Below, piece by piece: positions 26,585 to 49,681 of a DNA stretch of 64,000 nucleotides. The DNA lies in NCBI GenBank assembly GCA_027366525.1, contig DAHXKG010000001.1, positions 62,001 to 126,000 of the forward strand, in the 5' to 3' direction. A model generated the notes under the pieces. It searched no databases. It had not been told where the DNA came from and saw only the letters and a program-made list of their open reading frames with translations. Positions within the stretch are counted from its first letter, which is position 1; each line of letters starts with the position of its first letter. This DNA comes from a candidate division FCPU426 bacterium (lineage in GTDB: Bacteria > Oederibacteriota > Muellerivitia > Muellerivitales > DAHXKG01). Position numbers and translations under genes: made by a program.

Positions 26585-26599
26585 GCCATAAACCTCACG

Positions 26600-27304
26600 C
26601 TATTGAGGTATTAATTTGAACATGCGGCTAAAATCCGGATGAAAATTATTACTGTGCCAATAAATTATCCAAGCTTGCCCTTTAATATATTTTGCGTTCA
26701 ACTGTCCCCATACTCGAGAATCCGAACTATCATCTCGATTGTCCCCCATCATAAAATAATGATTCGGACGAACTGTAACAGGTCCCCAGTTGTCTCGTTC
26801 CCACCCTAAATCATTTTTTCGCGGAATAATATTTGGATCGGTATGAATGACGTATGGCTCATACTGTCTCTTACCATTCACATAAAGAATTTTATTTTTC
26901 ATCATTAAAACATCGCCTGGAACACCTTCTACCCTCTTAATATAATCCTTGCTATGATTCCTTGGATAAACAAAAACAATAACATCACCACGTTTAGGTT
27001 TATTAAACTCCAAAAAACGAGGAGTTTCATTAAATAGTGAGTACCCATATTCATACTTTTTAACTAGAATATAGTCGCCTGGAAGTAGAGTCGGTTCCAT
27101 TGAACCTGAGGGGATTTTATAAGCCTGAATAAATAATGTCTTAATCGTCAATGCCACTAACAGTGCAATCCAAAAAGCATCAACATATTCCAACACAATT
27201 CGCCCTGCAGTATGCTGCCGAATTTTCGGAAAACCCCAATGAATGATCGCTTCAACAATAGTTAACCCTACAGCAATTAAAAGCAAAATGGTATTTAAAT
27301 TCAT
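26600..27304 (-). CDS. lepB: Signal peptidase I
   Basis: Inner-membrane peptidase that removes Sec/Tat signal peptides. Two N-terminal hydrophobic segments (residues about 3-22 and 42-60). The catalytic Ser is in IPSGSMEPTLLPGD, the general-base Lys in DYIKRVEGVPGD, and box E is MGDNRDDSSDSRVWG. 234 residues; SD AAGGAG is just upstream of ATG 27304. It follows lepA by 23 bp, the classic lepA-lepB arrangement. Confidence 0.96.
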   Translation of the reverse strand: MNLNTILLLIAVGLTIVEAIIHWGFPKIRQHTAGRIVLEYVDAFWIALLVALTIKTLFIQAYKIPSGSMEPTLLPGDYILVKKYEYGYSLFNETPRFLEFNKPKRGDVIVFVYPRNHSKDYIKRVEGVPGDVLMMKNKILYVNGKRQYEPYVIHTDPNIIPRKNDLGWERDNWGPVTVRPNHYFMMGDNRDDSSDSRVWGQLNAKYIKGQAWIIYWHSNNFHPDFSRMFKLIPQ

Positions 27305-27327: not shown

Positions 27328-29124
27328 TCAATCAATTTTTAATACAGCCATAAAAGCTTCTTGTGGAATCTCAACCTGTCCAATATTTTTCATTCGTTTT
27401 TTCCCCTCTTTTTGTTTTTCTAACAACTTGCGCTTTCGGGTAATATCACCTCCGTAGCATTTTGCCAGCACATCCTTACGACGCGCTCGAATGGTTTCCC
27501 GAGCAATAATTTTCCCACCAATTGCTGCTTGAATGGGCACCTCAAATAATTGTTGTGGAATAATTTCTTTTAATTTTTCGGCTACCGCTCGTCCCCGAAT
27601 AGCGGCTTTCGCTTCATGAACAATAAAGGAGAGTGCATCCACCACTTCGCCATTTAAAAGAATATCCACTTTAACTACATTGCTTGCCCGATAATCAAGG
27701 AGTTCATAATCCAGTGACGCATACCCTTTAGTACAGCTCTTTAATTTATCATAAAAATCGATAACCATTTCAGCCAAGGGTAATTCATATGTAATAAGCG
27801 CTCGTTGCGAGTCCAAAAATTCAGTGTTTTTATGAATGCCTCTTTTTTCTTGGCAAAGAAACATGACCGACCCTATATATTCTGCTGGAACAATTATTTT
27901 CGCAAGAATATAGGGTTCTTCTATAAATTCAATCAAGGTTATATTGGGAAGTTTCGATGGATTATCAACAACTATTGTTTCGCTATTTGTTTTTCTCACT
28001 TGGTAAATAACATTGGGTGCTGTCGCAATCAAATTCAGCTGATATTCTCTTTCCAAACGTTCTTGAACAATTTCCATATGTAAAAGACCTAAAAAGCCAC
28101 ATCTAAATCCGAATGAAAGTGCTAATGAGGTTTCTGGAACAAATGAAAGAGCCGCATCTGATAATTTGAGTTTTTGCAACGCTTCTTTAAGCTTATCAAA
28201 ATCTTCTCCATTGACCGGGTACAACCCACAAAAAACCATGGGCAAGACATCCTGAAATCCGGGAAGTGCTTGAAGCGCTTCTTTCCCGTCTTCAGTAATC
28301 GTGTCACCCACACGCGCTTCTTTAGCTTCCTTAATATTGGCGACAACGTATCCAACTTCGCCAGCTGATAATTGATCGATTTTCTCCATTTTAGGTTTAA
28401 AAATCCCCACCTCTTCGACATCAAACACGCTACCGGTCGACATTAATTTCATTCGGCATCCTTTTTGAATACCCCCATCGATAATTCGAATGAAAAGAAT
28501 GACACCACGATAAGGATCATACATGGAATCAAAAATCAAACCCTTGAGAGGGCTATCCAAATTTCCAGATGGTGGCGGAATATTTTGAACAACCGCTTCC
28601 AAAATATCTTCAACTCCACGACCTTCCTTCGCAGAAGCGAGAATCGCTTCGTTGCCATCTAAAGCTAATGATTCTTCCATTTGTCGCTTGCATCGATCAA
28701 TATCAGCCGCCGGAAGATCAATTTTATTAATCACAGGAATAACTGCCAGCTTTTGTTCAAAAGCTAAAAAAGCATTGGCTAAGGTTTGGGCCTCGACCCC
28801 CTGTGATGCATCAATAAGAAGCAGCGCACCTTCGCAGGCTTTTAAGCTTCGTGATACCTCATAGTTGAAATCAACGTGTCCTGGCGTATCAATCAGATTA
28901 AATTCGTATTGTTTTTGATTTTTAGCTGTATAAAAAATACGAACCGCTTTGGCTTTAATTGTAATGCCTCGCTCGCGCTCAAGTTCCATCTGATCCATCA
29001 CTTGATCACGCATATCACGAATCGCAATTGCGCCCGTTTTTTCAAGCAACCGATCTGCCAGAGTACTTTTTCCGTGATCAATATGAGCAATAATACAAAA
29101 ATTTCTAATCGTTGAAAGATTCAA
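27328..29124 (-). CDS. lepA: Elongation factor 4 (LepA) GTPase
   Basis: Ribosome-associated translational GTPase. G motifs: [32 protein letters not shown] and [12 protein letters not shown]. The LepA-specific C-terminal domain includes [20 protein letters not shown] and [18 protein letters not shown]. The 598-residue length is standard. It begins the lepA-lepB-hemW-hrcA run. Confidence 0.97.
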
Positions 29125-29208
29125 TTTTTACTTTCTCGTTATTAATATCAAAATATATTTATGTCATCATGAATTCTACGAAATCAGGCTCTAAAAAAGA
29201 AAGGGATT

Positions 29209-29232: not shown

Positions 29233-30000
29233 TCAATAAAATCGGACATTATCGACTTGATAGCTAATTGGATATGAGCCCTTAACATTGTTTGAGCTAA
29301 AAAGCCACTCTAAATACAGTATCTGGGTTAAATCGGTAGGTGAAAGTGTGTTAGGTGTCAGCGGCGCAAATTGAGGAGTCATGCCTGAAAAGGGAAATGT
29401 TAAATGTTGCCAAGTTGCTGATGGTGTCGTTGATAAGTTATCCCCAAAATGATCGTAACACCCACTTGTGCATATTCCTGCCGGTGAGGCTGTAACAGGC
29501 TGCGTACGAGCAACAGCTACATTAAATCGCATCACTTGAACCTGGTTTTCAGCTTGACCACTGGCAGATTGAGCCGGAATTAACATATCCATCATCACAC
29601 CCGTAAATGTGGTAGCCGTATAGTAATTGCCATTGTTCAGAAAAATTTCGAGTTCAAACCCCGGATATTGTCCATTGCCTTGGTCTGTCAAGGTGCCAAA
29701 AATCTGTGCATCATAATAACTACCCGGTGGACCACCCGGCAATACAAAAGGATTATCAATCGTGTTACCTGCAAAAGTGGCATCAAGTGCAAAACCACCA
29801 GTTGATCCAAGTAAATTTGGATTGATCTCGGTATTTCCGGTTTCAAAGTTATCAATATAACTGGTGGGTAACGAATAAATTCCAAATGAACCGGGAGTTG
29901 GCAATTGGCTTTTGCATCCTTGGATAAGATAAAAAAGAACTCCAGTACCTAGTACCAAAAAAAGTATTGATCTGGTAATTGAAAGTTGCGTGTTATTCAT
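29233..30000 (-). CDS. Lipoprotein with carbohydrate-binding-like domain (paralogue 1)
   Basis: A 255-residue predicted lipoprotein: lipobox LIQGC near residue 29, followed by KSQ. The mature domain resembles CBM11/CIA30-type galactose-binding jelly rolls: an opening YIDNFETG, the conserved GICTSGCYDHFG motif, a 'WQHLTFPFSGMTPQF' strand and the final ISYQVDNVRFY. It shares size, lipoprotein start and the C-T-S-x-C-Y-x-H-F motif with the adjacent gene, so the two are tandem duplicates. Last gene of the six-gene operon. It probably binds glycan at the outer membrane; this is inference. Confidence 0.72.
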   Translation of the reverse strand: MNNTQLSITRSILFLVLGTGVLFYLIQGCKSQLPTPGSFGIYSLPTSYIDNFETGNTEINPNLLGSTGGFALDATFAGNTIDNPFVLPGGPPGSYYDAQIFGTLTDQGNGQYPGFELEIFLNNGNYYTATTFTGVMMDMLIPAQSASGQAENQVQVMRFNVAVARTQPVTASPAGICTSGCYDHFGDNLSTTPSATWQHLTFPFSGMTPQFAPLTPNTLSPTDLTQILYLEWLFSSNNVKGSYPISYQVDNVRFY

Positions 30001-30018
30001 TACAGTTCACCCCCGACA

Positions 30019-30786
30019 TCAATAAAATGAAACTTGATCTAAATAATAGTCAATCGTAGAAGTTCCCGCGGCATTATTCCGATCCTCATCCCATTCAATT
30101 CGAATAATCTTATTTGGAGTCCAAGGCGCGTTGTTTCCAAAGGAGGGCTCGGTCAGCAACGAAAATGGGATCTGAAAATACTGCCATTGCCCAGATCCAG
30201 GCCCAGTTGGTAACGCATATCGAAAATGATTATAACAATTCGACGTGCACGTTCCCCTTGGATCATCGGCTGCTTCATCAGTCGCTGCAATCGGAACCTC
30301 AAAAAGTCGTTGTGGCGCATTATCATCGGGCATAATTTTCAAAGCAAATTCAACTCCCGTAAAAAAACTGCAATCATAATATTTAGTGGCCTCTATGCTG
30401 CAACGCAAAGAAAATTGGGGATAGAGCCCGGTACCTGGATCGTCTACCGTCCCTGATAAATGCAAACAATTACTAGATTCATATCCAGGAGAAACAACTT
30501 GCATTAATCCAATCACATAGGGGGCATTTTGTGGCAGTGTCCATGATCCTGCACTATATAAGTAATATGTCGGTCCGTTGGTTGGTTCAAAAATATAGGG
30601 ATTTACTGAAACCTGTCCGTTATCAAAATTACAGATCGTTTGTCGATCGGGCGGATTAGCACTGTATCCCCCTAGCGTGCCTACGCTTTCCATGGTTGGA
30701 AGTTGATTTTTGCAGCCCACAACAACGAGCATGCTTATTCCCAAAAGGATTACTAGGCGCTTAAAATTTAATTGCATATTCCGCAT
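30019..30786 (-). CDS. Lipoprotein with carbohydrate-binding-like domain (paralogue 2)
   Basis: A 255-residue predicted lipoprotein with lipobox VVVGC near residue 25 (followed by KNQLPT, like its paralogue's KSQLPT). The mature part has TICNFDNGQ, GTCTSNCYNHF, a WQYFQIPFSLLTEPSF strand and the closing IDYYLDQVSFY, a CBM11/CIA30-like pattern. It overlaps the porin-like gene upstream by 26 bp, indicating coupling. ATG 30777 (fourth residue) is an alternative start. Ligand unknown; glycan binding inferred from fold and neighbours. Confidence 0.72.
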   Translation of the reverse strand: MRNMQLNFKRLVILLGISMLVVVGCKNQLPTMESVGTLGGYSANPPDRQTICNFDNGQVSVNPYIFEPTNGPTYYLYSAGSWTLPQNAPYVIGLMQVVSPGYESSNCLHLSGTVDDPGTGLYPQFSLRCSIEATKYYDCSFFTGVEFALKIMPDDNAPQRLFEVPIAATDEAADDPRGTCTSNCYNHFRYALPTGPGSGQWQYFQIPFSLLTEPSFGNNAPWTPNKIIRIEWDEDRNNAAGTSTIDYYLDQVSFY

Positions 30787-32929
30787 CCACTGTATTCGTT
30801 ACTGTTGAAAGATTTTGATTAGATCCATTGGTTGAAAAAGCTGAATTCACTTTTTCAACAATCCAATCTAAATAAAGTTTCGATTGCTTCGTAATTGAAA
30901 ACGTGTTCGACAAGAAATATTCCCAATTACTTTCATTGATCGAAAAATTAGAAAAATCACCCAAATCCCCATTATCAAACCAAAATGTATATTGGGCGGT
31001 CGGCGTTCCTTCATATCCTGACTCAACACCTTGAGAATGAAACGGACCAGTTCCAACTTCAAGCCACCATTTAGGGACAATTCTCCGATCAATACCCAAG
31101 ATAACACCAATGCTATTCAAGTTCCCAATGGAGCTTTGCGTATTCTCATCACGAATATTCAACCCAACATTAAATGGTTGATCCAAATTCAAAACATGTT
31201 GGAGATGAATTTGTGGCCCAATATTAACATAAATAAAATGTCGAATAACCGGTGTCGTTGATGTAGGATTTTCCAAAGATACAAATTCCGTTCCAGATTT
31301 ATTTACAACCATATTACCACTAATTTCACTTACAAAATAAATTTTTCCAGGAATTTGCAATTTCAAATTATGGAGAAAATGCAGGGCGAATTGCACGCCA
31401 ATTCCCTGCCGATCGGGTGTGGCTAAACCATAAGGGAAAACGTTGTCCGTCAAGCGATTATAAAACCGGTAAATTCCACTTGGGTCGGTAATTTGAGTAA
31501 AAAACGGAAATCCCAGTAACCCTGGAGCAAATGCTGAAAATGCCGCTGTTGTAGCGTCATAGCTATCATATTGTCGAAGTTGAGCGAGTGGAGAATAATA
31601 CGACGGACTAATTCGAATATAATTTAATTGAATGATTGATCGACCAAATTGGATATTTGGACCGCCAATAACCGCAGGACCACTTACATTGCGACCTGAA
31701 TTAAAAATATCATCCCGAAGCAAAGCATCGGCCAGTTCCATTTTAACTCCAATCGTGACACCTGCCGCAACGGGTATTTTTAAATTGGGAACGACACTTC
31801 CAACCTGATATTGTTGAGCCCATAAAGTCGGAACATTTGGGTTATACGTCACGGTTGGATTCGAATTAAATGGAACATCATACAAGACTGCGTATCCACT
31901 AATCGTTAGATATTTTCTAAAACTCAAAACACCTTTGCCTCCAAAAATCCAATTATTAAACGTCGTTCCAACATAGGTTCCGCCGATTTGGTAATTATTA
32001 TTAACCATATCCGCAAATACTGAAATATTGAAACTTTTTACAGCCGGAGATTGTGGCCAAAAAATGCGAGTTCCGACTTTTAACCCACGCAAAGGATATT
32101 CAGGTTCATGATTTAAATATACAAGCGATTTTGGATATTCATCAATCCGATTCAGGGTTTCTGGCTTGTATTCCAGATCTAAATCATCACGATTCCAAAG
32201 TGTTAAGGGTGTATACGCCTGATAAAAATCGCCAATGTCCATAGACATAAAACTCGGATCCAAGTGAATCGTCATACGTCGCAAAAGAATCGTCACTGAC
32301 TGCTGAGGTTCATTAGCTAAAATCTGAAATTCAGATTTCCAATTGACTTGCGGCGCCACTTCTACTGAAGCATTTAAGTTAAGCACGGTTTGAAAGTAAC
32401 GATTTGAAAAGGGATATGCCAACCCCAATCCATATTCCTTTGAATATGGAACCATCCAAAAAACTCCAGAACCATCAACACGAATAGCATGCCCAAAAAT
32501 AATATCGTTATTCAATTTTTTAAAAATTCTATATTCCCTAAGGTTAAGCGTTTGTTCTTCTTTCTGGAGCTTTTGAACATCTTTTTTCACTGCCGCAACT
32601 TCTGCCTGATATGCTTGCTGCAGTGAAGTTAAATCGGTTTGATCAATTTTTAAATCACTATCAAAAAACGGAGTTGAATGACTCTTTTGGGTCTCAAGAT
32701 TCCGATTGGCTTGAAGTATATCTTGAGCAACCTCATATCGTGTCAATGGATATCGAACTTCGTCTTTTTTCAATAAATTATCTTTGGCGAGTTGGGCTAG
32801 CTCAACATAGGCCGCATTGGATTGTGGAACTTTTTCAAACAAAGAAAGTCCAGCTGCGCTCGCCCCCGTAGAAGCAACCAACATAAAAAATAGGATTATT
32901 ATCAATCTCACTTTAGAAGGTGGATTCAC
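30761..32929 (-). CDS. Porin-like outer-membrane protein (barrel 1)
   Basis: A large exported protein (about 722 residues). Order: signal peptide (LIIILFFMLVASTGASA), a short SLH-like helical region (VELAQLAKDNLLKKDEVRYPLTRYEVA), a coiled coil (EVAAVKKDVQKLQKEEQTL), then an aromatic, alternating C-terminal region of about 550 residues ending YAIKF, typical of a barrel. SIDIGDFYQAYTPLTLWNRDD-like and VFPYGLATPDRQGIG segments recur in the next gene, so they are homologous. GTG 32929 is chosen as the start: GGAG lies eight bases upstream and it overlaps the preceding stop; the frame extends to 33007. Likely an SLH-anchored channel for oligosaccharides; substrate inferred only from context. Confidence 0.75.
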   Translation of the reverse strand: MNPPSKVRLIIILFFMLVASTGASAAGLSLFEKVPQSNAAYVELAQLAKDNLLKKDEVRYPLTRYEVAQDILQANRNLETQKSHSTPFFDSDLKIDQTDLTSLQQAYQAEVAAVKKDVQKLQKEEQTLNLREYRIFKKLNNDIIFGHAIRVDGSGVFWMVPYSKEYGLGLAYPFSNRYFQTVLNLNASVEVAPQVNWKSEFQILANEPQQSVTILLRRMTIHLDPSFMSMDIGDFYQAYTPLTLWNRDDLDLEYKPETLNRIDEYPKSLVYLNHEPEYPLRGLKVGTRIFWPQSPAVKSFNISVFADMVNNNYQIGGTYVGTTFNNWIFGGKGVLSFRKYLTISGYAVLYDVPFNSNPTVTYNPNVPTLWAQQYQVGSVVPNLKIPVAAGVTIGVKMELADALLRDDIFNSGRNVSGPAVIGGPNIQFGRSIIQLNYIRISPSYYSPLAQLRQYDSYDATTAAFSAFAPGLLGFPFFTQITDPSGIYRFYNRLTDNVFPYGLATPDRQGIGVQFALHFLHNLKLQIPGKIYFVSEISGNMVVNKSGTEFVSLENPTSTTPVIRHFIYVNIGPQIHLQHVLNLDQPFNVGLNIRDENTQSSIGNLNSIGVILGIDRRIVPKWWLEVGTGPFHSQGVESGYEGTPTAQYTFWFDNGDLGDFSNFSINESNWEYFLSNTFSITKQSKLYLDWIVEKVNSAFSTNGSNQNLSTVTNTVDAEYAIKF

Positions 32930-35057
32930 AATTAATACTCCATTCTTGAACACGCGATGCATAATTCGCCATATTGTATTGCTGTGTTTGCTCATCAAAC
33001 CACTCACCCCGCAAATCCATTTGTGAATTAATCTTATATTTCAAACCTACAGCAACTGTGGTTTCGCTTAAATTTAAATCCGTTAATGTATAGGTCCCAA
33101 CAGCTGCAGCATCGGTGTAGAATTCATAGGCCGCATAAGTAGTGCCTGTTAAAACATATTCCCAACCCTGAGCACGCGCAGACTCATAGCCCAATGAAAT
33201 CACCCAAGGTGAAAAATACGATCCGGGAGGTACAAAATCCAATTCTCCTATAATTGTTTTTACGGTTAAACTAGTTCCATTGCCGGTTGTATTTTCTTCT
33301 TTAAATTCCCCGCCAACCGTTAGTCGATTTGAAAGTTGAAGTGCGTTACCCAAATTAAGTCGTAACGCTCCATCGGAACTTGAAAATGTTCGAATCCCAG
33401 CAGTTGCAAGCCCACTGTCGGCTGCTACTAATCCGGTTGCCGTAGCGTTCAAAACCCAGTTCGGTTGAATTTCATGTGCTGATGTATAAAAAAATTCAGG
33501 CTTAATCCATCCCTGATTGCCTAACGCAGCAAGAATACCTCCAACAATTCCCTGGCGATTCGGCGTGGCATCGCCATATGGAAATATATTTTCAGCAACG
33601 CGGTCATAGACTGCAAATTGCGGTGATGAAATACTCTGAAAAACCCATTCATTTCGATACCCAATCAGCCCATTATCTTCATTATTACTTGTGGTAAAAT
33701 ACCCAACGCCAGGTTCAGGTGTATACCGCAAGGTTTGTGATCCTGGAGAATAAAAATTCGGACCTACATTTAAATATTTCACTTTCAACTGGATTGTTGA
33801 AATATTTAACTTTGCCCTAAATATAGATGACCAATCTTGATAGGTTCTGCCTGGATTATTAATATCATTATTAAAATCGCTAAAGGCCATTTCATCATTC
33901 ATCGACAGCAAAATATTTGGCGTTAGTGCTACATGTAATTTAGGCCAGAAGCTTCCCAACTGATATCGTTGAGCAAAAGTTGCGGAGTAATTTGAAATAT
34001 ATGGCACTTGAGCGGTTCCAGGGTCATCCCACAACATCAACCCCGTTTCGAGTAATTTTAGATCATTCTGAAAAAAGCCGAGCGATAATTGCCCGCCTGA
34101 AAAATATTGCCCATACTGATATGTTCCTATCGGATTAATTTGCCCAAACATTGCTTGATATCGAATATCGGATAATAAGGCATTTTTTGAAATTTTAAAT
34201 TTTTTGAAAATTTCCCCACCTTGCAGAATCCAACCCGGCCCGCCATTGATATCGGCTAAACCTTCTAAATCTTCTCTGCGCTCTTTAAAGGGAGTCGGTT
34301 CCAGCAATGTATAAACATCATTATAGTTCCATAGTGTCAGTGGGGTATAACTTATTTTAAAATCTCCCAACTGAAGATTCCCATATGAACTATCTCCACT
34401 AAGCGACATCCAACGAACATAAACATAAGGAAACAGTGGGTCCGCATAATAATATCCATATGTTTCCCAAAGCCGGATATCAGTTTGAAAAAGAATATCT
34501 GGAATAGGAATACTAGAAAGATCTAAATCCGTGTAGACCTTTGCATTTCGAGACATGGCACCTATAGGGGCATTCGCTCCAAAACCCCGAAACATATTAT
34601 AATAAGAACGAATATCGCCACTGATATTGGTTCCAGTATTGTCTTTTATAGAATTTTGAGTTCGTTCAATCGCTTGCAATCCTTTTTTTTGTTGCTGCAA
34701 TAGCTTTTGAACTTTAACAACATTTATTTGCATCAATGAAATTTCCGATCGAAATTCTTTTAGTAATTGTTGCAAACTTACATTAGCCGTTTGAGGCAAA
34801 GCTTCTTCTAATGGAGGAGGTTCATTTAAAAATTGTTGAGCCGCCACTGCAGTGAGTTGCGCAATTTGAAGATTCGATTGCGCACTAATCGGTTGATGTC
34901 CAATCTCTTGAGTCTGAATTAATCCAGCGACAACTAAATTTCGGACATCTTGATTTAAATAGGGACTTCGATCACTTGATAATAATGGACCATGAGCCGC
35001 AAAAACTCGGCCGATCCCTAATGTCATTAACGCAATGACTAGACAACATTTTTTCAT
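32913..35057 (-). CDS. Porin-like outer-membrane protein (barrel 2)
   Basis: Exported protein of about 714 residues: signal peptide (MKKCCLVIALMTLGIG ... FAAHG), SLH-like segment (LNQDVRNLVVAGLIQTQEIG), coiled coil (LQQLLKEFRSEISLMQINVV), then a long beta-rich region. It shares LGDFKISYTPLTLWNYNDV and IFPYGDATPNRQGIV with the downstream barrel 1, so they are paralogues. ATG 35057 is preferred over 35090 because AGGAAAACGGGC precedes it and the longer frame would overlap barrel 3. Translationally linked to both neighbours. Confidence 0.77.
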   Translation of the reverse strand: MKKCCLVIALMTLGIGRVFAAHGPLLSSDRSPYLNQDVRNLVVAGLIQTQEIGHQPISAQSNLQIAQLTAVAAQQFLNEPPPLEEALPQTANVSLQQLLKEFRSEISLMQINVVKVQKLLQQQKKGLQAIERTQNSIKDNTGTNISGDIRSYYNMFRGFGANAPIGAMSRNAKVYTDLDLSSIPIPDILFQTDIRLWETYGYYYADPLFPYVYVRWMSLSGDSSYGNLQLGDFKISYTPLTLWNYNDVYTLLEPTPFKERREDLEGLADINGGPGWILQGGEIFKKFKISKNALLSDIRYQAMFGQINPIGTYQYGQYFSGGQLSLGFFQNDLKLLETGLMLWDDPGTAQVPYISNYSATFAQRYQLGSFWPKLHVALTPNILLSMNDEMAFSDFNNDINNPGRTYQDWSSIFRAKLNISTIQLKVKYLNVGPNFYSPGSQTLRYTPEPGVGYFTTSNNEDNGLIGYRNEWVFQSISSPQFAVYDRVAENIFPYGDATPNRQGIVGGILAALGNQGWIKPEFFYTSAHEIQPNWVLNATATGLVAADSGLATAGIRTFSSSDGALRLNLGNALQLSNRLTVGGEFKEENTTGNGTSLTVKTIIGELDFVPPGSYFSPWVISLGYESARAQGWEYVLTGTTYAAYEFYTDAAAVGTYTLTDLNLSETTVAVGLKYKINSQMDLRGEWFDEQTQQYNMANYASRVQEWSINCESTF

Positions 35058-35073
35058 GCCCGTTTTCCTACAT

Positions 35074-37557
35074 TTAAAAGATAAATGCATATTCAGCCAG
35101 ATACTGATTTACTGTATAATCATTTTCAGGAAGATCTAAGTCCCTAAAGAAAACCCGATCAAATCGCAATTCAATCTTTCCGCCCGACCACGGTGGATCA
35201 TAAGCAAGCCCAACTCCAAATTCGTGCGTTCGGTAATGAATTTCTGGATACGTATAACTACAATCCCAATTTTCCCAAGCATAATGCGTCATAACATTAA
35301 TATGCGGTAGTACATGTCCAACCATTAGTGCCGCATCAAAAACTTTTTGCTCAAACATATCTGGAATATTTTGTTTCGATACTGCATTCGACTGAGCACT
35401 CAATCCTGGTATATTCGATGAAATCGCTTGTCCAGAAACTTTATTGTCCAAATCCGTTATAACCACATCTAACGGCGTATGAAACTGAAACATCCGATTG
35501 ATTTGCCACTTATCTGTAATCGCAAAGTAATGATATGTTTTGATTTGAGCATATTGTGCACGTGCTGCTGGGTTTGCTGGATTATACCCATTGGGGTCAA
35601 ACAGTGGTATAAATTGTGAAGCTAATCTGAACTCATAAGCAACATCGGGACTAAATCCGAGTGTATATCCGCGTGCGGCATCAATATTGTTATTAAAGGC
35701 CGCTCGAACTGGAAATGGTGTTGCATATCCACCAAATAAATCCAAACCCCAGACTCCTTCTGTATAGGTATAGTAAGGTTCAATAAATATCCATGGCTCT
35801 AACATATAATCGCCAGCCGGATCTGTGGCAGCCAAATATTCTGTCCGTTGAGCATAGTTTACATTGAAAACAATATCATCTAAAAACGAAGGTAATATCT
35901 TTTTCATCCAGTGATACTTCCGCCCATTCCACCCAAAATCAATTCTCCATCCCTTGCGATCATTTTGAACTGTATTTTCTTCTGCAATTTGTCCATAGTT
36001 ATTAATATTGACATCATCCTCACTTCCAGCATTATATTGACCATTGAAGTTTGAATAGGTCATTGAAACCTGACTTTGAATATCTGAATAATAAGGAGAA
36101 ATAGCTTGATAGAAGAAAGAAAATGGATACAAATTAATTTCTCCAAGAAATGCATTGCCCACCAACGGCGTAACATTTGTTGGATCGGCTAAGTTAACCC
36201 CTGTAAAAAAATGGCTCTGAGCTTCATCTAATGAAATAATTAAAGGATCCAAATCCAAGGTTGCATGAGCAGCATAATCCCGTAAATCCATATGAGGTGT
36301 TTGAGGAATACCTGTAGAATCTTCAAGCCAATATCCCCCTACATAGGTGTCAAGAACATTGAACCACGTTCGTTCAAATTTCATTCCATATTCAAATCGA
36401 TTTGGTTCTAACATTCGTCCCGCTAAAAATGTTGCCATTAATCCTGGTGCCCAACTGATACTCTGACTATTTAATACAAATCCATCAAAAACTCGATCCG
36501 TTGGCGAATGTCCATATCCATTCGGAGTCACATAGCCAATACTATTCATATATGTACTCCAAATTTGGGAATCCGTACTATTATCAAAGGGCAAAATATT
36601 AAACGGATCTGTGAATCGAAATGGAACTTCTGCTGATTGACCCCTTAAGAAAATACCAATATCCGGTAAAGGATTCCAAACCTGATCAAATACATTCGCC
36701 TCCCACGTTCCAAGGGGACCTTGGAACATCCAATTCAATGCCGCCGATGGATCATTAAAAGAAACTGGTGCGTTATTGCCCAGAAAAAGTGTTTCATCAA
36801 TTCCCACACTTAAACTACCTTGCCCAATGGCTGTCCACATTCCTAAATAGGTTTCTTCCGTCCATAGGGATGTATTTTCTTGTGGAATTTTTGCGACCGA
36901 CGATGTCCCATTGGAAATAGTTAATGGACCGCTATATTCGGGTTGAACTGTGTCCGTTTCATAATTAAATGTTGTATTTGAATTAAATTGTGGACTGCCT
37001 AAACTTTTGTTTGATTTAACATATTGTTTTTCGAGATTCTTGTTAACCAAATTTAATTCGTCAACAAGAACGGTTTGATTTTTCAAATTTGCTTGATTAA
37101 GATTTAACTGATCATAAAGATATTTCGCTTCGTGATGCAATTCCCGCAAAAGTCGATGAATGTCCTGGGTCGCCGCTTGAGGAAATACAGGGGGAGGCAT
37201 TGAGGGGGTGGCAACAGCCATTGGCAATCCTTGCGGTATCAAGTTCGGAGCCGTTTGAGTTGGAAAAGTGGTCGTTGAATTTGAATGTTTTAAAAGACTT
37301 GGTTGGGCCAAATAGGCTTTAGCTTTAACTGTATAAAAAGCCAATTGTAATCTTGAAACCGGCTGACCACTATTTAAAACTTTGGTGGCTTCTTTCCCTA
37401 ATAAACCATAAACTTCCAAATGCTTTACTTGTTGATAAATTTTATTTTTAGGTGTGAGCTTTTCAAACATAGATGCCGCTTGAGTAATCGAGGGCCAAGC
37501 TCCAACACCGCCAATAACTAATAGTGTTAAAAAATAAAAAAATCGCGTAACTTTCAA
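35074..37557 (-). CDS. Porin-like outer-membrane protein (barrel 3)
   Basis: The largest of the set (827 residues). It has a signal peptide (FFYFLTLLVIGGVGAW ... TQA), an SLH-like N-terminus (MFEKLTPKNKIYQQVKHLEV, then PVSRLQLAFYTVKAKAYL), a Pro/Thr-rich stretch, a coiled coil (LHHEAKYLYDQLNLNQANL) and a long beta-rich domain ending VNQYLAEYAFIF. The N-terminal design matches barrels 1 and 2 but the barrel sequence has diverged (SWAPGLMATFLAGRMLEPN). It overlaps the lipoprotein gene upstream by ATGA. Role as a channel or surface protein is inferred. Confidence 0.75.
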   Translation of the reverse strand: MKVTRFFYFLTLLVIGGVGAWPSITQAASMFEKLTPKNKIYQQVKHLEVYGLLGKEATKVLNSGQPVSRLQLAFYTVKAKAYLAQPSLLKHSNSTTTFPTQTAPNLIPQGLPMAVATPSMPPPVFPQAATQDIHRLLRELHHEAKYLYDQLNLNQANLKNQTVLVDELNLVNKNLEKQYVKSNKSLGSPQFNSNTTFNYETDTVQPEYSGPLTISNGTSSVAKIPQENTSLWTEETYLGMWTAIGQGSLSVGIDETLFLGNNAPVSFNDPSAALNWMFQGPLGTWEANVFDQVWNPLPDIGIFLRGQSAEVPFRFTDPFNILPFDNSTDSQIWSTYMNSIGYVTPNGYGHSPTDRVFDGFVLNSQSISWAPGLMATFLAGRMLEPNRFEYGMKFERTWFNVLDTYVGGYWLEDSTGIPQTPHMDLRDYAAHATLDLDPLIISLDEAQSHFFTGVNLADPTNVTPLVGNAFLGEINLYPFSFFYQAISPYYSDIQSQVSMTYSNFNGQYNAGSEDDVNINNYGQIAEENTVQNDRKGWRIDFGWNGRKYHWMKKILPSFLDDIVFNVNYAQRTEYLAATDPAGDYMLEPWIFIEPYYTYTEGVWGLDLFGGYATPFPVRAAFNNNIDAARGYTLGFSPDVAYEFRLASQFIPLFDPNGYNPANPAARAQYAQIKTYHYFAITDKWQINRMFQFHTPLDVVITDLDNKVSGQAISSNIPGLSAQSNAVSKQNIPDMFEQKVFDAALMVGHVLPHINVMTHYAWENWDCSYTYPEIHYRTHEFGVGLAYDPPWSGGKIELRFDRVFFRDLDLPENDYTVNQYLAEYAFIF

Positions 37558-38270
37558 GATGCCCCCACTTTTCCATCCGATGACTCTTTCAAAGGTGGAG
37601 AAATTGCCACTTCATTTACATATACGGTATACATACCCATACCTGATTTTTGATCAATGACTCGAAATTCCTCAATTTCGTTCCAATGAATTGGAACGCC
37701 TGTAATGTTAGCTACGCCATTCCAATAAGCACCAATATTTGAAAAATCCGAAAGAGGAATTTGATATAACTGCCAATGGCGAGTAACTGGTTTAAATTGG
37801 CTAAGCGGTAGTGAAACTTCTACTTCATGACTTAGTGTTTTGGAATCACATAAAGCAACATAAACTGGTAAATTATTTTTATTCCCTTTGATCCAAAACC
37901 GCAGAACATAGCCTTCTTGGCGTGCCTTAACTAAATTATAACTTTGGCCCGCATCAATAATAATTCCAGAATAATCATTTGAATTAAGAACACATTTTAA
38001 AGATTCACTACCATTATGAACTTCATCGCCACTCATCTGCCCAAAAGTTTCCGAACCATATGGAATTAACGATGCAACCGTATTGCTAACAAATATGACT
38101 TTAGCACCCTTGAAATCAAAAGGAATAACTTTGCGATTGGCCGCTGGATTAATAAAGCCTAAAGGTAATGAAACATTTTTAGACCCAGGGTTTACAAAAA
38201 CACCTCCACACCCTGCTGTCAAAATTATGCTTAAAATACAAGTGAGCAAAAACCATTTTTGATAATTCAA
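37554..38270 (-). CDS. Lipoprotein with jelly-roll carbohydrate-binding-like domain
   Basis: First gene of the operon: 238 residues with lipobox LTAGC near residue 21 (CGGVFVNPGS). The mature part has the order expected of CBM11-like domains (HNGSESLKCVLNSNDYSG, GYVLRFWIKGNKNNLPVYVAL, HWQLYQIPLSDF, and a terminal YTVYVNEVAIS). It lacks the CTSxCY motif of the two lipoproteins at the other end. Overlap with barrel 3 is ATGA. The closest functional guess is a glycan-binding surface lipoprotein. Confidence 0.68.
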   Translation of the reverse strand: MNYQKWFLLTCILSIILTAGCGGVFVNPGSKNVSLPLGFINPAANRKVIPFDFKGAKVIFVSNTVASLIPYGSETFGQMSGDEVHNGSESLKCVLNSNDYSGIIIDAGQSYNLVKARQEGYVLRFWIKGNKNNLPVYVALCDSKTLSHEVEVSLPLSQFKPVTRHWQLYQIPLSDFSNIGAYWNGVANITGVPIHWNEIEEFRVIDQKSGMGMYTVYVNEVAISPPLKESSDGKVGAS

Positions 38271-38297
38271 AAGCGATTCCAGTCCATTTGAGTAAAA

Positions 38298-38331
38298 TCG
38301 TTATCACTATCAATAACGAAAATGTATTGTA
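38298..38331 (-). promoter_or_regulatory. Candidate LacI-family operator overlapping a promoter
   Basis: A perfect inverted repeat TCGTTAT-N8-ATAACGA (38298-38319) lies 28-49 bp before the first lipoprotein gene. A -10-like TACAAT (38331-38326, minus strand) is placed so that transcription would begin inside the repeat. The divergent gene upstream is a LacI-family repressor, which makes this a natural operator. The -35 is not obvious, and the repeat differs from the classical central-CG LacI form. Confidence 0.5.
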
Positions 38332-38528: not shown

Positions 38529-39545
38529 ATGAACAAAAACACTTTACGGCCAACTATTTTTGATGTCGCTAAAAAAGTTAAGGTATCGCCAGCAATGGTT
38601 TCTCGTGTCTTAACTGGTCGTGGTTATGTTAAAAAAACTAAAAAGGAATTAATTCAAAAAACCATTGAAAAAATGCAATTCTATCCTTCCGCCATTGCAC
38701 AAAATCTTCGAAAACAAAAAACCCTGACGCTAGGCTTGTATTTATGTTGGCCCTATTCTAGTGTAAACTTTTTCCTACAAAATATTCTTATTGGCATCCT
38801 CGATGGTTGTACGGCTACAAAATATCAACTATTAGTGACCAATTTAGGAGAACGATTAGATCAGCTCTCACCTATAAACCGCCATAAATTTTTTAATGAT
38901 ACACGCGTTGATGGAATTTTATTGCTCGCGCCTTATCTCCAACAATCCAAACTATATCCGATTCTTCAACCGTATATGCAACGAGTGATGCTTGTTTGTG
39001 CTCAAAATAAATACTTGAATTTTGTCGATTCAGATCAAGTCCATGGAATATACCAAGTTGTTGAATTTCTCGTTCAACAAGGATATCGCCGTATTGGATT
39101 TCTTTCTGGTGAAATCAGTCTTGTCTCTAATGCTGATACACGATTTCGAGGATTTAAACAGGCGATAAAAAAATTCAATCTCCCTTGGAATGCTTCGCTC
39201 CGCTGGAAGGGAAGTTTTAATTTCAATAGTGGTAAAGAAGGTGCTTCATATCTTTTGGGTTTGAAAAATCCTCCAACTGCTTTAATTGCTTCTAATGATG
39301 CCTTAGCGGCTGGCGCCCAAGAAATTCTCAAACTAAAACATTTAGAAAAGAAAATTCCTTTAATCGGTGTAGATGACCATCCTTTAGCAGGCTCTCGAGG
39401 TCTTTCAACACTCAAACAACCTTTTCAAGAAATTGGTCGTCAATCTGTTTTCGAACTCATACAGTTACTCCAATCCTCGAATCAGCCTTTAATTCATCAC
39501 CTCCTTCCCATGGAGTTGATTCACCGAGAGACTTCTTTATTTTAA
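38529..39545 (+). CDS. LacI-family transcriptional repressor
   Basis: A 338-residue regulator. The N-terminal helix-turn-helix and hinge are clear (PTIFDVAKKVKVSPAMVSRVL, then YPSAIAQNLRKQKTLTLGLYL), followed by a type I periplasmic-binding fold with RRIGFLSGEISLVSNADTRFRGF, TALIASNDALAAGAQEIL and GVDDHPLAGSRGLSTLKQP. LacI relatives usually sense a sugar and regulate a linked uptake/degradation operon. It is divergent from the six-gene porin/lipoprotein operon and tail to tail with the RlmD-fusion ORF. The sugar is unknown. Confidence 0.93.
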   Translation: MNKNTLRPTIFDVAKKVKVSPAMVSRVLTGRGYVKKTKKELIQKTIEKMQFYPSAIAQNLRKQKTLTLGLYLCWPYSSVNFFLQNILIGILDGCTATKYQLLVTNLGERLDQLSPINRHKFFNDTRVDGILLLAPYLQQSKLYPILQPYMQRVMLVCAQNKYLNFVDSDQVHGIYQVVEFLVQQGYRRIGFLSGEISLVSNADTRFRGFKQAIKKFNLPWNASLRWKGSFNFNSGKEGASYLLGLKNPPTALIASNDALAAGAQEILKLKHLEKKIPLIGVDDHPLAGSRGLSTLKQPFQEIGRQSVFELIQLLQSSNQPLIHHLLPMELIHRETSLF

Positions 39546-39577: not shown

Positions 39578-42500
39578 TCAATTTGATGTTGGAAACTTAC
39601 TGGGGTCTTCGAGAAATGGATTAATATAATTAAGACCTTGAAAATTTTGAATTTTTATAGGAACCGGGGTTCCCTGCGGAAGTACTCCCTTAACATATGT
39701 AAAAGCAAAATCTCTAGGAATTTGTCCCGGTGATCTTAATAAAACTGCAACCATATATCTATTTTCACGTCCGGGGTTATTTTCGAGTGGTAGCACAAAC
39801 TCTAAATTACTAATATGAAGAATGTTGCCGGATAGTATTTGAAATGGGCCCAATTGATTTAATACTTGATAATGATCTCCATTAGTTTTTAGTTGATATA
39901 ATTTTAAATTGGTAAAATTTCTTGTTGAATCATTTTTGATTTGAACTGAAAAGGTGGTCGGTTCTCCAACCATAGCACGCTTGGGAATTACGAGCTTCAT
40001 ATGTAATGGCAATATACCTTCCTCTTCTCTCATTTTACTAAAAGCTGCACCTCCTGCAATTGCCCACTCCATCGTATCATATGGACCTTTTACACCCCAA
40101 ATCAGTCGGTATAAATCATGCCAAAACATTCCTAGATGGTCATTCATGGGAAACCAAGTATTAAACATTTGAACTTCACGATCATACAGTTCCTCAGGAG
40201 CCGGAGGGTTCAATGATCTTTGAACCCAATTAAAGTCGACCATTTCTCCAATCAAATACATATTGCTACTTCGTTTCAAATAAGGTGGCCATTGATGGGC
40301 CATATAGTGCATTTCGCGCAAATTACTTTGATATAACATAACATTATCAAATCCAACGCCGGCATCTGAAAGCATTGCGGGATCCAATCCATGATCATGC
40401 CCCATATCCCAGCCTAACGTAAAGGCAAAAACAGGTTTTTTAGGATGAACAACATCTAAAATATGTTTAACCACTACTGCTACTTGATGTGCTCGCCACC
40501 AATCAAACAAAGCATGTAATCGTCCGTTATGGTGGACTAAAATTTGCCTCGCAAGCCATAATTCTCTTTCTGGTTTATATTCTTTGAAAAAGCCTGCCGG
40601 AACGGGAATGTTTAAACCACGCACAAACTGATCAACTAATTCGTAACCCCCATATCCGGTCCTAACATAATCCAATCCAATCATATTAACCCAAGGAGCT
40701 TGATTCAACCGTTCTAAAATATGGATAATATCGCGTTGTCGATTAACGTCTTCGAGTGATATAAATGGAGTTTCCACTAATCGATTCGTATTCTTATTAT
40801 ATCCCACAGCAAATTGATAGGGAGCTTGACGCCAACCTTGCCCGACAACTTTAAACGTGGTTAAATAAGCCCCAAACTTCAAATTATCTTTATGAATTGC
40901 AATAGCATATTTATGTGCCGTTTCCCAATCATATTTGGAAAATGGAAATTCGGATGGATGGAAGCGATGCCAAATGGCTGTTTGGCCTACTAAAAACAAA
41001 AAAGCATTTGCACCTAAAAATTTGGTCCATTGTGCTACCGCAGCCCTTGATTCTTGGTGATGTTTCGCCAAATTGGGAACAGCCCCCACAGGCGACTGAG
41101 CCCCGCCTTCCATAGTAAGAGCTGCAAATCCTGTTGGAAGAACCCAAGGCTTAAGCGGTAAAATTGAAAAATTTGATTCAAATGTTCTCGGGCGCTTCCA
41201 TTTTGGAAATTTTAGTGTAACTTGAGCAATGTAGGTCCCGGCCTTGGGATTAAAGGGGATCGGCCAGTTTACATGGAAAAAACGTTTTTGATAGTTAGGA
41301 ACTAATTTAATTCTCTTCTGCCCAGTTACAATAGGAACCGAATGTCCATCATGAAAGACTCGGACAAAAGCATGCATCGCATGCATTTTCACTTTTGATT
41401 TTATATAAATTTTAAATGGAATTAACTGATATCGTTTAAATATTCCAGAAGGCATCGTAGCAACTACATCAGAAACCGTCGTTGAATGCATCGATGACCA
41501 CTTAATCATTGAATGAACCAATGCCGCTCGCGCAATACAAAATCCAATACCCATCATCCCAATTGAGAATAATATTAATCGAACTATAGCATTTTGAGCT
41601 AGCGCTCGAATTTTATTTCCCTGCCATAAAGATTGCATTGACACGGATTCTTTTAAAAGTTCATTTGATTGGCGTTCCGCTTGTTTTATTGATCTTTCAA
41701 AATAATTGACCGCTTTAGTCTCGTTTGGATTCTGGTTTTGGTTGCTGATCGTAACGTTATTTGAGGGAAGAGATACAAGATTCGTTCCGCTTTTTTCTGC
41801 ATCTGCCGATATATGACCAAGATTCATTGAATTCCCTGGATTGGAATCAGGGGAATTGGTACGAGTTAATTTAACCACTGTTTCAACATGATATGTTTGA
41901 GGAAACATATCCAAAGGCTGAACCCAATTAATCTGATACCCGTTTTGACTAAGCCAATTCAAATCGCGCGCTAAAGTAGCCGGATCACAAGAAACATACA
42001 CTATTCGCTGAGGATGCATGGATACCACTTGAGTTAGAACTTCAATTCCTAAACCTTTTCGCGGCGGATCTAAAATAATGGCTTCAATTTGCCCAATATT
42101 TTCCGTTTTCAAGCGTTTAAGAATCGAAAGAACATCGCCTTTTAGAAAATCAATATTTTTATAATTATTTATAATGGCATTGGCATTGGCATCTTCGACA
42201 GCACTCGCATTTTCTTCCACCCCAATAACATATTTGGAATGATCGGCCACGGCTAGTGTTAGGGTTCCAATACCAGCATATAAATCTAAAACCGTGCTCC
42301 ACTCTTTATGATCTTGCGGCGTATCCAAAGCTTCACGAACAATTTGATTCAAAACTTCAGCTTGAGCAGTATTCACTTGGAAAAATGAATTAAGAGAAAC
42401 TCTCCATTTTTTCTGATCAAACATCTCATAATAAAAATTTCTTCCTGCTAAATTTTTTTGTTGAACTCCAAGTACAATATTAGTACGACTCGGATTGATA

Positions 42501-43300
42501 TTCTGAATCACCCCTTTTAAATTTGGAAACTCCTCCATGAGCTCACTAGAAATTCTGACAAGAATTTGATCTAAGGGTTCATCAATTAACGTAATTCGAT
42601 TTAATCGCTCTTCCGGAAACTCCGTTCGTGTCACAAATGCGAGTAGAAGTTCCGAAGTCCCTTTGCCATATCGGACCGATAAATGTCTTAAAAAACCACT
42701 ATGATTTTTCTCTTGATACGGTGTTAATCCTGCCAATTCCACTTTTTGTAGTGTTTTCTGAATCAGGTCATTAATAGACGATTGCTGAATTGGACAAGTT
42801 ATGTACGGAACCAAATCATGCGTACGCGTTTCATATATTCCAGCAACAAAATGTCCTTTGCGCATTGAAATGACCGGAAGCGCTTTATTACGATATCCAT
42901 AAACATCGGAAGAAGGCAAACAGGGTTGAACTTCAATACCTACTAAATGTCCAATTCGCTCTAATGAATCAGAAACAAACTTTCGTTTACTCTGGAGTTG
43001 TTTTGAATAACTTAAATTTTGCCACTGGCATCCTCCACATTCCTCAAAAATTGGGCAGGCAGGCAAAACCCGATCAGTTGACGATTCAACAACGCGAATA
43101 ATTTTCGCTCTTCCAAAATTATCTTTTATTTGAACTATTCGAACTTCAACAAGTTCTTGGGGGATACCATGAGGAACAAAAACAGTAAATCCATGAATAT
43201 GACCTATTCCCTCACCACCAAATGCAAGGTCTTCAATTCGGATTTGAAGAACTTCATCCACACGAATGGGTGGTTTTTTGGGAGCCGACATCGATTCCAT
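39578..43300 (-). CDS. RlmD-type rRNA methyltransferase fused to membrane glycosidase-like region
   Basis: One uninterrupted frame of 1240 residues. Residues about 15-480 are an RlmD/RumA-type 23S rRNA m5U methyltransferase: TRAM domain, Fe-S ligands CPIFEECGGC plus a later TCPIQQ, SAM loop LDLYAGIGTLTLAVA, DPPRKGLG, catalytic Cys in YVSCDPATLARDL and Glu in HVETVVKL, where RlmD normally ends. A polar linker follows, a transmembrane helix at about 572-596, a beta domain, a TIM-barrel-like region (KYDWETAHKYAIAIHKDNLK; VFAFTLGWDMGHDHG) and an Ig-like end. An internal ATG at 41827 has CAGGGA upstream, so the second half (39578-41827, 749 residues) may also be made separately. The glycosidase assignment is tentative; no family named. 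Confidence 0.78.
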   Translation of the reverse strand: MESMSAPKKPPIRVDEVLQIRIEDLAFGGEGIGHIHGFTVFVPHGIPQELVEVRIVQIKDNFGRAKIIRVVESSTDRVLPACPIFEECGGCQWQNLSYSKQLQSKRKFVSDSLERIGHLVGIEVQPCLPSSDVYGYRNKALPVISMRKGHFVAGIYETRTHDLVPYITCPIQQSSINDLIQKTLQKVELAGLTPYQEKNHSGFLRHLSVRYGKGTSELLLAFVTRTEFPEERLNRITLIDEPLDQILVRISSELMEEFPNLKGVIQNINPSRTNIVLGVQQKNLAGRNFYYEMFDQKKWRVSLNSFFQVNTAQAEVLNQIVREALDTPQDHKEWSTVLDLYAGIGTLTLAVADHSKYVIGVEENASAVEDANANAIINNYKNIDFLKGDVLSILKRLKTENIGQIEAIILDPPRKGLGIEVLTQVVSMHPQRIVYVSCDPATLARDLNWLSQNGYQINWVQPLDMFPQTYHVETVVKLTRTNSPDSNPGNSMNLGHISADAEKSGTNLVSLPSNNVTISNQNQNPNETKAVNYFERSIKQAERQSNELLKESVSMQSLWQGNKIRALAQNAIVRLILFSIGMMGIGFCIARAALVHSMIKWSSMHSTTVSDVVATMPSGIFKRYQLIPFKIYIKSKVKMHAMHAFVRVFHDGHSVPIVTGQKRIKLVPNYQKRFFHVNWPIPFNPKAGTYIAQVTLKFPKWKRPRTFESNFSILPLKPWVLPTGFAALTMEGGAQSPVGAVPNLAKHHQESRAAVAQWTKFLGANAFLFLVGQTAIWHRFHPSEFPFSKYDWETAHKYAIAIHKDNLKFGAYLTTFKVVGQGWRQAPYQFAVGYNKNTNRLVETPFISLEDVNRQRDIIHILERLNQAPWVNMIGLDYVRTGYGGYELVDQFVRGLNIPVPAGFFKEYKPERELWLARQILVHHNGRLHALFDWWRAHQVAVVVKHILDVVHPKKPVFAFTLGWDMGHDHGLDPAMLSDAGVGFDNVMLYQSNLREMHYMAHQWPPYLKRSSNMYLIGEMVDFNWVQRSLNPPAPEELYDREVQMFNTWFPMNDHLGMFWHDLYRLIWGVKGPYDTMEWAIAGGAAFSKMREEEGILPLHMKLVIPKRAMVGEPTTFSVQIKNDSTRNFTNLKLYQLKTNGDHYQVLNQLGPFQILSGNILHISNLEFVLPLENNPGRENRYMVAVLLRSPGQIPRDFAFTYVKGVLPQGTPVPIKIQNFQGLNYINPFLEDPSKFPTSN

Positions 43301-43531
43301 GTATACTTTTTACCTGTTATGTTTTTGAAATCAGATTGGCATTTTCGCATATTAAATCTTTGTATTCAAAGTAATTCATATAAATTTTAACGTTATTTAT
43401 ACATAATACACATATTTTTGAGGAAACCTTAAATTCAAATTTTTATCACGATCACTTATAAACTTCATTGAAAGCCTGCTCATCCCTTGTTAAAATACAA
43501 CGATTTTAAATCCTCGAATACAGGAGTCTTC

Positions 43532-44191
43532 ATGAGGCGTTTTTGGATTATTCTGGGCATTATCATTTTATTGGTCTTTGTTTATTCTGTTCTCGTGGGC
43601 TTAGGCATTGTCAATCTTCATTCTTCTCCCTCCCCCCGACAAATCCACACTTTAATTTTAGATGACTTTGAACACCCCAGTAATGATCTTCAATGGCGCA
43701 CCAATGGCTATGTACAAATTACTTCATCTCATCTCCACGTAACGCATGGAAAAAAATCAGCTCAGATTGAGTTTTTGATCCCATCTCAATTCATTGCCAC
43801 ACCAACTCCTGGAATTAATTGGCAACCACGCATCACACTTTCCTCCAGTTCCTTATTTTTACTTCGTGCATACAATTGGTCATCATTTAAAAATTTTCAA
43901 ATGGATGCTTTTAATCCTCAAAACCAACCTGTAACTTATTTTTTAAAATTTGTCGACTCGCGATCTTTTTCGTATAAAGTTTCGGGAGTACTGTTACCGA
44001 ATATCGAAAATAAAATTATTGTTCCAATTAATGATCTTCTAAAAGCTCGCTTAAACTTAAAAATGATTCGTTCCGTTTCATTTTGGGTGCATTTAACTAA
44101 AACTCAACAACCCCTTGATATTTTTATTGATTATGTTCGTTTAGATGCACCACTGAATTTTAAAAGAAGCTTACCGGTAACTACTAACTAA
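43532..44191 (+). CDS. Membrane-anchored carbohydrate-binding-like protein
   Basis: About 219 residues from ATG 43532, chosen because AGGAG lies six bases upstream (the longer frame starts at 43487). An N-terminal transmembrane anchor (FWIILGIIILLVFVYSVLVG) is followed by a beta-rich exported domain beginning LILDDFEHPSNDLQW and ending DIFIDYVRLDAP, the same strand order as CBM11-like domains in the operon lipoproteins. No lipobox. The gene is divergent from the RlmD-fusion ORF with about 230 bp between. It likely belongs to the same glycan-handling locus. Confidence 0.62.
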   Translation: MRRFWIILGIIILLVFVYSVLVGLGIVNLHSSPSPRQIHTLILDDFEHPSNDLQWRTNGYVQITSSHLHVTHGKKSAQIEFLIPSQFIATPTPGINWQPRITLSSSSLFLLRAYNWSSFKNFQMDAFNPQNQPVTYFLKFVDSRSFSYKVSGVLLPNIENKIIVPINDLLKARLNLKMIRSVSFWVHLTKTQQPLDIFIDYVRLDAPLNFKRSLPVTTN

Positions 44192-48854: not shown

Positions 48855-49616
48855 TTATTTTAGAAATAGGGTTTGACCAACTTTTAAATGTAATTGTTTA
48901 GAAGCACTACCTCGCGATGATGATATTTCTAAATATCCTTGGGACCCCCATATACCCAGTAAATGATGGATCGGAACTGCAGTGTAATACGAATAAATCG
49001 AAATCTGTTTATTACCAACATAAATTTTCCGACCATTTGAGAAATGTTGTTTTGTAAAATTAGTAATGGCATTACCAAAATGATCTATCCATAAAATTTC
49101 ACCTTTATAGCCGGATGAACTAGGTTGCGGAGTTTGAATTGTATCAACTGCCCATTTTTTCAAAGGAAATCCAAGACGATTTAAAGGAACACCCTTCACT
49201 AGTTGTCCAGCCACAGGTGCAAAAATATCTCTTCCATGGAAGGTTGAACTAACTAATTTAGTTATAGGCGTTTTAATTACAATTGCATCCTCCCATTTAT
49301 TCGTTTCTAAAATAGCTGGGAAAATTCCATTATCGGGACCTACCCAGTAGTAGCCTTGCGATTTAAGCACAATCGGTAACCGAGAGCTCCCAACCCCTGG
49401 ATCAACTACACATACGAAAATACTATTGCGGGGAAAAAAACGAAAAACTCCACGCATAATAAAAGCTGCTCCAGCAATTGAAAATGGAGGAACCTCATGA
49501 GAAATATCAATGATATGTACCTTCGGACATTGGGAAAAAATTACTGCTTTCATAACACCAACATAAGCATCGTGATGACCAAAATCAGTTAATAGGCCAA
49601 TGACCTTAGAGTGCAA
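48855..49616 (-). CDS. SAM hydrolase / DUF62-type protein
   Basis: A 253-residue S-adenosyl-L-methionine hydrolase (adenosine-forming), DUF62 family, related to chlorinase and fluorinase but normally hydrolytic. Seen: GLLTDFGHHDAYVGVMKAVI, HIIDISHEVPPFSI, FVCVVDPGVGSSR and WVGPDNGIF. The conserved Asp/Arg/His set in DIFAPVAGQL is preserved, consistent with water as nucleophile. Cell role is unclear; SAM or methionine balance is a general guess. Tail-to-tail with the phosphatase. Confidence 0.87.
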   Translation of the reverse strand: MHSKVIGLLTDFGHHDAYVGVMKAVIFSQCPKVHIIDISHEVPPFSIAGAAFIMRGVFRFFPRNSIFVCVVDPGVGSSRLPIVLKSQGYYWVGPDNGIFPAILETNKWEDAIVIKTPITKLVSSTFHGRDIFAPVAGQLVKGVPLNRLGFPLKKWAVDTIQTPQPSSSGYKGEILWIDHFGNAITNFTKQHFSNGRKIYVGNKQISIYSYYTAVPIHHLLGIWGSQGYLEISSSRGSASKQLHLKVGQTLFLK

Positions 49617-49681
49617 TATCTACTCTTTCAAACGTTTTTAAATTTTCATCTAAAAATCAATGGTTAGACATAAATTCGTGG

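Follow-up and report, generated by a model that had tools for sequence, protein, structure and literature searches.

The known members of the RlmD/RumA/RlmCD group compared here end at the point where, in the protein described below, a linker begins, and they carry no C-terminal exported module. FbcH of Bradyrhizobium (cytochrome b/c1) is a polyprotein with an internal signal peptide. We describe a gene of candidate division FCPU426, the 16S cluster of the cellulose-degrading Goldbacteria (PMC7031533), that joins an RlmD-type enzyme to an exported-type module. The gene lies in what we call the window, i.e., the whole stretch of 64,000 nucleotides that was analysed, which belongs to a 2.0 Mb genome that is 97.5% complete (G000). 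Judged by profiles and motifs, the fusion consists of a known enzyme and an exported family that has no name, and the functions of both are predicted. A literature search found no paper on such a fusion of RlmD with an envelope protein and no precedent for it, nor did it find a paper on internal-signal-peptide polyproteins of bacteria; a plasmid search gave zero matches. New here are the order-wide conservation of the fusion, its single-copy status, the probable lepA-linked origin of its C-terminal part (the C-part), a predicted site of cleavage and a GH66-like family not described before.

Parts of the fusion gene

The complete fusion gene occupies positions 39578..43300 of the minus strand, starts with ATG and encodes 1,240 amino acids with zero internal stops. 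The first-pass annotation had reported an unbroken in-frame join of RlmD and an exported-type module, and a single open frame of 1,240 codons, read from 43300 to 39578, indeed covers both. Residues 1-482 (41855..43300, minus strand) score 423.3 bits with the RlmD profile TIGR00479 (cut-off 183.55), and the Pfam search matched both the TRAM domain (PF01938, 39 bits) and the methyltransferase domain. The best solved relative is RlmCD of Streptococcus (5xj1, E 3e-67), followed by E. coli RumA (1uwv); the domain match to these enzymes is full-length, with TRAM, the SAM site and the catalytic Cys and Glu in common. Alignment with 1uwv located the SAM loop VLDLYAGIGTL, the DPPRKG motif, the catalytic Cys of VSCDP and the Glu of HVETVV, while the Fe-S cysteine set, as in RumA, consists of C82, C88 and C91 with C169 as the fourth Cys. 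Every RlmD landmark listed at first reading (TRAM, Fe-S cysteines, SAM loop, catalytic Cys and Glu) was thus recovered by profile and motif search. By these motifs the RlmD part is a complete RlmD/RumA-type enzyme, a predicted 23S rRNA uracil-C5 (m5U) methyltransferase.

A polar, Asn/Ser-rich linker (residues 483-574, 41579..41854, minus strand), which in relatives is under in-frame constraint, leads to the 18-residue hydrophobic segment LILFSIGMMGIGFCIARA (residues ~575-592, 41525..41578, minus strand), a putative internal signal peptide or signal anchor. After this segment the frame continues for ~650 more residues without a stop. The AlphaFold2 model of the C-part, built from a 40-member C-part alignment (pLDDT 88, pTM 0.86), consists of the hydrophobic helix, a first Ig-like beta domain (residues ~604-713, 41162..41491), a glycoside-hydrolase-like (beta/alpha)8 barrel (residues ~726-1093, 40022..41125) and a second Ig-like beta domain (residues ~1099-1206, 39683..40006), all on the minus strand. 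The glycosidase-like Ig and TIM-barrel character that had been read from the letters alone is therefore borne out by structure prediction.

The top Foldseek match of the model is GH66 dextranase 5axh (E 5e-15, probability 1.0, at a TM-score of 0.30 and ~10% identity), and the next matches are GH2 and CITase structures. Membership in GH66 was rejected because the GH66 profile PF13199 has no match to the C-part in any of the 39 genomes; the fold layout agrees. Pfam has no catalytic or GH family above threshold for the window C-part or among the 40 C-part members. The best scores for GHL10 (PF02638), obtained with two standalone members only, are 13.5-13.6 bits versus a cut-off of 27.9, and hhalign against the GHL10 proteins of the phylum gave a probability of 70 around the strand-4 motif LDYVR; as every C-part member stays below the curated cut-off, GHL10 membership was rejected as well. 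Across the fused and standalone forms in the 40-member alignment, D877, D973, D1022, H1061-D1062 and E1078 are invariant (D302, D398, D447, H486-D487 and E503 in the alignment numbering). In the alignment the Asp after strand 4 (D302) is invariant and strand 6 has no invariant Glu, and no pair of catalytic residues emerged for the barrel. We infer that the C-part may act enzymatically on glycans and represent a family not described before; it falls into no Pfam family, and its predicted structure is closest to the layout of GH66 dextranase.

Conservation, neighbourhood and origin

Scanning contigs with only the window C-part as query gave no match; the alignment query recovered the relatives. 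The search for the same fusion in related genomes, proposed with the first reading, found the identical in-frame join in eight of eight other genomes of the order (family f2, five genera), i.e., in 9/9 in total. The first-pass annotation had also considered that relatives might always encode two genes with a stop between them; in this order they always form one frame, with zero splits over two families and six genera. The named fusion matches are records of candidate division FCPU426 or otherwise labelled MAGs, and they come from unrelated projects (palsa, groundwater, soils). Where the contig covers the whole gene, the fusion frames of the sister family f2 are 1,418-1,527 aa long, and two f2 contigs end inside the RlmD part, that of G007 lacking the first residues and that of G008 most of RlmD. 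For the f2 fusions, identity amounts to 58-61% over the RlmD part and 45-50% over the C-part, and the RlmD motifs are intact in all relatives of the order wherever the contig covers them. Neither a second RlmD-like gene nor a second C-part was found in the nine genomes of the order. These observations confirm that the fusion is genuine and order-wide and that it involves the single RlmD of each genome.

In the C-part tree, f1 and f2 form one clade with 100/100 support. Where other families of the phylum possess both parts, these are encoded by two genes that lie on different contigs or at a great distance from each other, with the sole exception of f7. Two candidates for further fusions were rejected: the long RlmD frames of G011 carry their additional sequence at the N side and are explained by the length of open frames in GC-rich DNA, and the RlmD of f12 has no exported domain. 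The standalone f12 RlmD (L029:1399-3438, L031, L103) ends in a strongly basic, disordered-looking C-terminal tail of ~200 aa.

In many FCPU426/Goldbacteria-type genomes, the standalone C-part gene is closely associated with lepA, which encodes EF4. There are 18 loci on named contigs (L058-L082) where lepA comes directly after a standalone C-part gene, and in 17 of them the distance from the C-part stop to the lepA start is -14 to +3 bases; several of these loci continue with lepB and a hemN-like gene. The window has lepA at 27331..29127 (minus strand), lepB, the gene of the presumed processing protease signal peptidase I, at 26603..27304 (minus strand), and then hemW at 25406-26599. Between the fusion and lepA lie a LacI regulator (38529-39545, plus strand) and a block of genes (29236..38300, minus strand) encoding small CBM11/CBM30-like exported proteins and three large beta-barrel-like proteins. 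The products of this block mostly have no Pfam match, and the block is conserved between the fusion and lepA in the order. The arrangement of fusion, block and lepA recurs in G001, G003, G004 and G005; the window, G001 and G003 have the run lepA-lepB-hemW downstream of the fusion, and G004 and G005 have lepA there. In position, the C-part of the fusion thus corresponds to the exported protein whose gene is coupled to lepA. Most likely, rlmD was joined, in the ancestor of the order, to the front of the exported gene that originally stood beside lepA-lepB-hemW. LepA is reported to be largely membrane-localised, and in E. coli its gene precedes lepB (PMC4245954), so a link between a translation factor and the membrane has a precedent, although nothing here shows a functional link.

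Several other genes around these loci deserve mention. A C-part gene of Elusimicrobia (L064:7130-11749) directly follows alaS, another translation gene, and in L065 and L084, also of Elusimicrobia, alaS is followed by a C-part gene, as judged by gene sizes. The window gene at 43487-44191 and the cl9/cl5 genes of the sister family are fusion-adjacent, exported-looking and conserved in the order, with no Pfam match, and a SAM hydrolase-like gene (NF058624 family) is located near the fusion at 48858-49619.

The exception, f7 (G013; L070, JAUXIB010000064.1), has a frame of 1,148 aa in which an RlmD-like domain is joined to the same exported module. The gene is found at L070:8477-11920, identical to L039:123-3566, with a lepB-like gene upstream, and the contig ends just downstream. 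Its RlmD-like domain scores only 77 bits with TIGR00479 and keeps TRAM and the four Fe-S cysteines; the SAM loop, DPPRKG, the catalytic Cys and the Glu have been lost, and by this loss of motifs the domain is predicted to be catalytically dead. In the AlphaFold2 model of this pseudo-RlmD the methyltransferase has a pLDDT of 55 and only TRAM is solid. No intact RlmD was found in the f7 genome (G013, 89% complete), and the hydrophobic segment of its fusion has no A-x-A. The C-part tree places f7 apart from the order, but a single clade with the order is not rejected (AU p 0.33), and therefore there may have been one or two fusion events for f1/f2 and f7.

Products of the fusion gene and meaning of the join

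The hydrophobic segment is closed by A-x-A in all nine genomes of the order (ARA, ATA, AAA, AKA and AMA in the alignment). The uncharged run is 15-17 residues long in seven of the nine, 21 in G002 and 26 in G006; the window fusion has a 16-residue hydrophobic run with basic residues on the cytoplasmic (N) side. The features of a signal peptidase I substrate, i.e., A-x-A, a short run and a basic N side, are thus all present, and the cut in the window fusion is predicted after Ala592 (A-R-A). Standalone C-part homologues have an N-terminal signal peptide at the place that the hydrophobic segment takes in the fusion, and these signal peptides, read by eye, look ordinary and end in A-x-A. The short run, the A-x-A and the standalone signal peptides at the same relative position together favour cleavage by signal peptidase I. 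Of the transmembrane helix announced at first reading, the membrane segment itself stands, but with its short run and conserved A-x-A it resembles an internal signal peptide more than an anchor.

We give an about even chance to the reading in which signal peptidase I splits one chain in two, releasing an exported enzyme and leaving a tailed RlmD in the cytosol. The ribosome would make a single chain of RlmD, linker and exported module, and RlmD would fold in the cytoplasm. The hydrophobic segment would then be read as an internal signal peptide, the Ig/TIM-barrel/Ig module would cross the inner membrane, and the signal peptidase LepB would cut after the conserved A-x-A. The freed RlmD with its disordered tail, perhaps held briefly at the membrane, would methylate 23S rRNA in the cytosol, and the freed periplasmic or surface enzyme would act on a polysaccharide. 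Export, cleavage and glycan activity of the C-part are what we infer here; the A-x-A could merely be small residues that end a membrane helix. The f2 fusions (e.g., L054 and L053) have a moderately hydrophobic Ala/Gly-rich segment just after RlmD, which is absent in the window; if this second segment spans the membrane, it would change the topology.

Whichever topology applies, the join may be an incidental, operon-style fusion that provides co-expression only, with halves that act independently, a possibility that we rate as less likely than not. The standalone C-part is already translationally coupled to lepA, so that tight co-expression with a translation gene was achieved before any fusion; the long linkers, moreover, diverge rapidly. 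Conservation of the join with no split in either family of the order speaks against this, as does the second fusion, with a decayed RlmD, in f7.

The main rival of cleavage, which we hold less likely, is an uncut type II membrane protein, in which RlmD would be permanently tethered with the glycan-active module outside, possibly for rRNA methylation at the membrane or for envelope sensing. It is consistent with the basic residues on the N side of the hydrophobic segment and with the f7 fusion, where a dead RlmD with TRAM and four Fe-S cysteines is joined through a segment without A-x-A, as if RNA binding and tethering could persist without methylation. However, in the order A-x-A is rightly placed in every genome and the run is short for an anchor in 7/9, and the f7 case is a single, incomplete genome whose methyltransferase model is of low confidence.

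It is improbable, in our estimate, that the join is a functional physical link, in which an rRNA-binding or -modifying domain at the inner membrane is coupled to a glycan-binding or -cutting module outside. If true, ribosome maturation or ribosome position would be tied to the status of the envelope or its polysaccharides, and the dead-RlmD form of f7 and the lepA-coupled standalone gene would represent further forms of this link.

The linker bears on whether there is one product of translation or two. It is free of stops over 84-370 codons in the nine genomes, and in f2 it is 200-370 aa long and mostly Pro/Ala/Glu-rich. For the close pair G004/G007, dN in the linker is 0.20 and dS 0.48 (dN/dS ~0.4), with third positions changing most; the corresponding dN and dS are 0.02 and 0.18 in RlmD and 0.04 and 0.37 in the C-part. 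More distant pairs also have a third-position excess in the linker, at dS values near saturation. The lack of stops and the third-position excess therefore indicate that the linker evolves as protein, and in the sampled pairs it appears to be fast-evolving but under protein-level constraint.

The internal ATG at 41827 with its upstream CAGGGA, to which the first-pass annotation had drawn attention, does exist, but a separate second protein made from it is unsupported, and the start is not conserved in relatives. We hold it quite improbable that ribosomes also or mainly initiate at an internal ATG such as this one to give a separate exported protein. The duplex energy of -4.6 kcal/mol is the best among the starts in the window linker, but it is ordinary when set against all in-frame starts of the gene (mean -1.86, SD 2.57), none of the eight relatives has a start with a good Shine-Dalgarno sequence at the corresponding place, and initiation at 41827 would leave ~80 residues ahead of the hydrophobic segment. 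An assembly artefact, or a stop codon lost in one genome, is excluded for practical purposes because eight other genomes, assembled separately in unrelated projects, share the join.

Comparison with known systems

As an order-wide, single-copy gene, the fusion is a test case for a physical link between ribosome modification and the cell envelope. It is also a candidate bacterial polyprotein, to be split by signal peptidase into cytosolic and exported products, and it brings to light an undescribed Ig/TIM-barrel/Ig family that is translationally coupled to the LepA gene in many candidate-phylum bacteria. With GH66 dextranase and cycloisomaltooligosaccharide glucanotransferase (5axh, 5axg, 3wnp) the C-part has the Ig / (beta/alpha)8 / Ig layout in common, but the similarity to 5axh is remote and PF13199 is blind to the C-part. 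To GHL10 barrels it bears a weak profile likeness at LDYVR, but it differs from them in its extra Ig domains and in other flanking conserved motifs, and each of its members is below the GHL10 cut-off. FbcH is likewise one chain split into cytoplasmic-side and exported products, whereas in the window fusion the cut is only predicted; and the two parts of FbcH are subunits of a single membrane complex, whereas the window fusion would join a soluble rRNA enzyme to an envelope enzyme.
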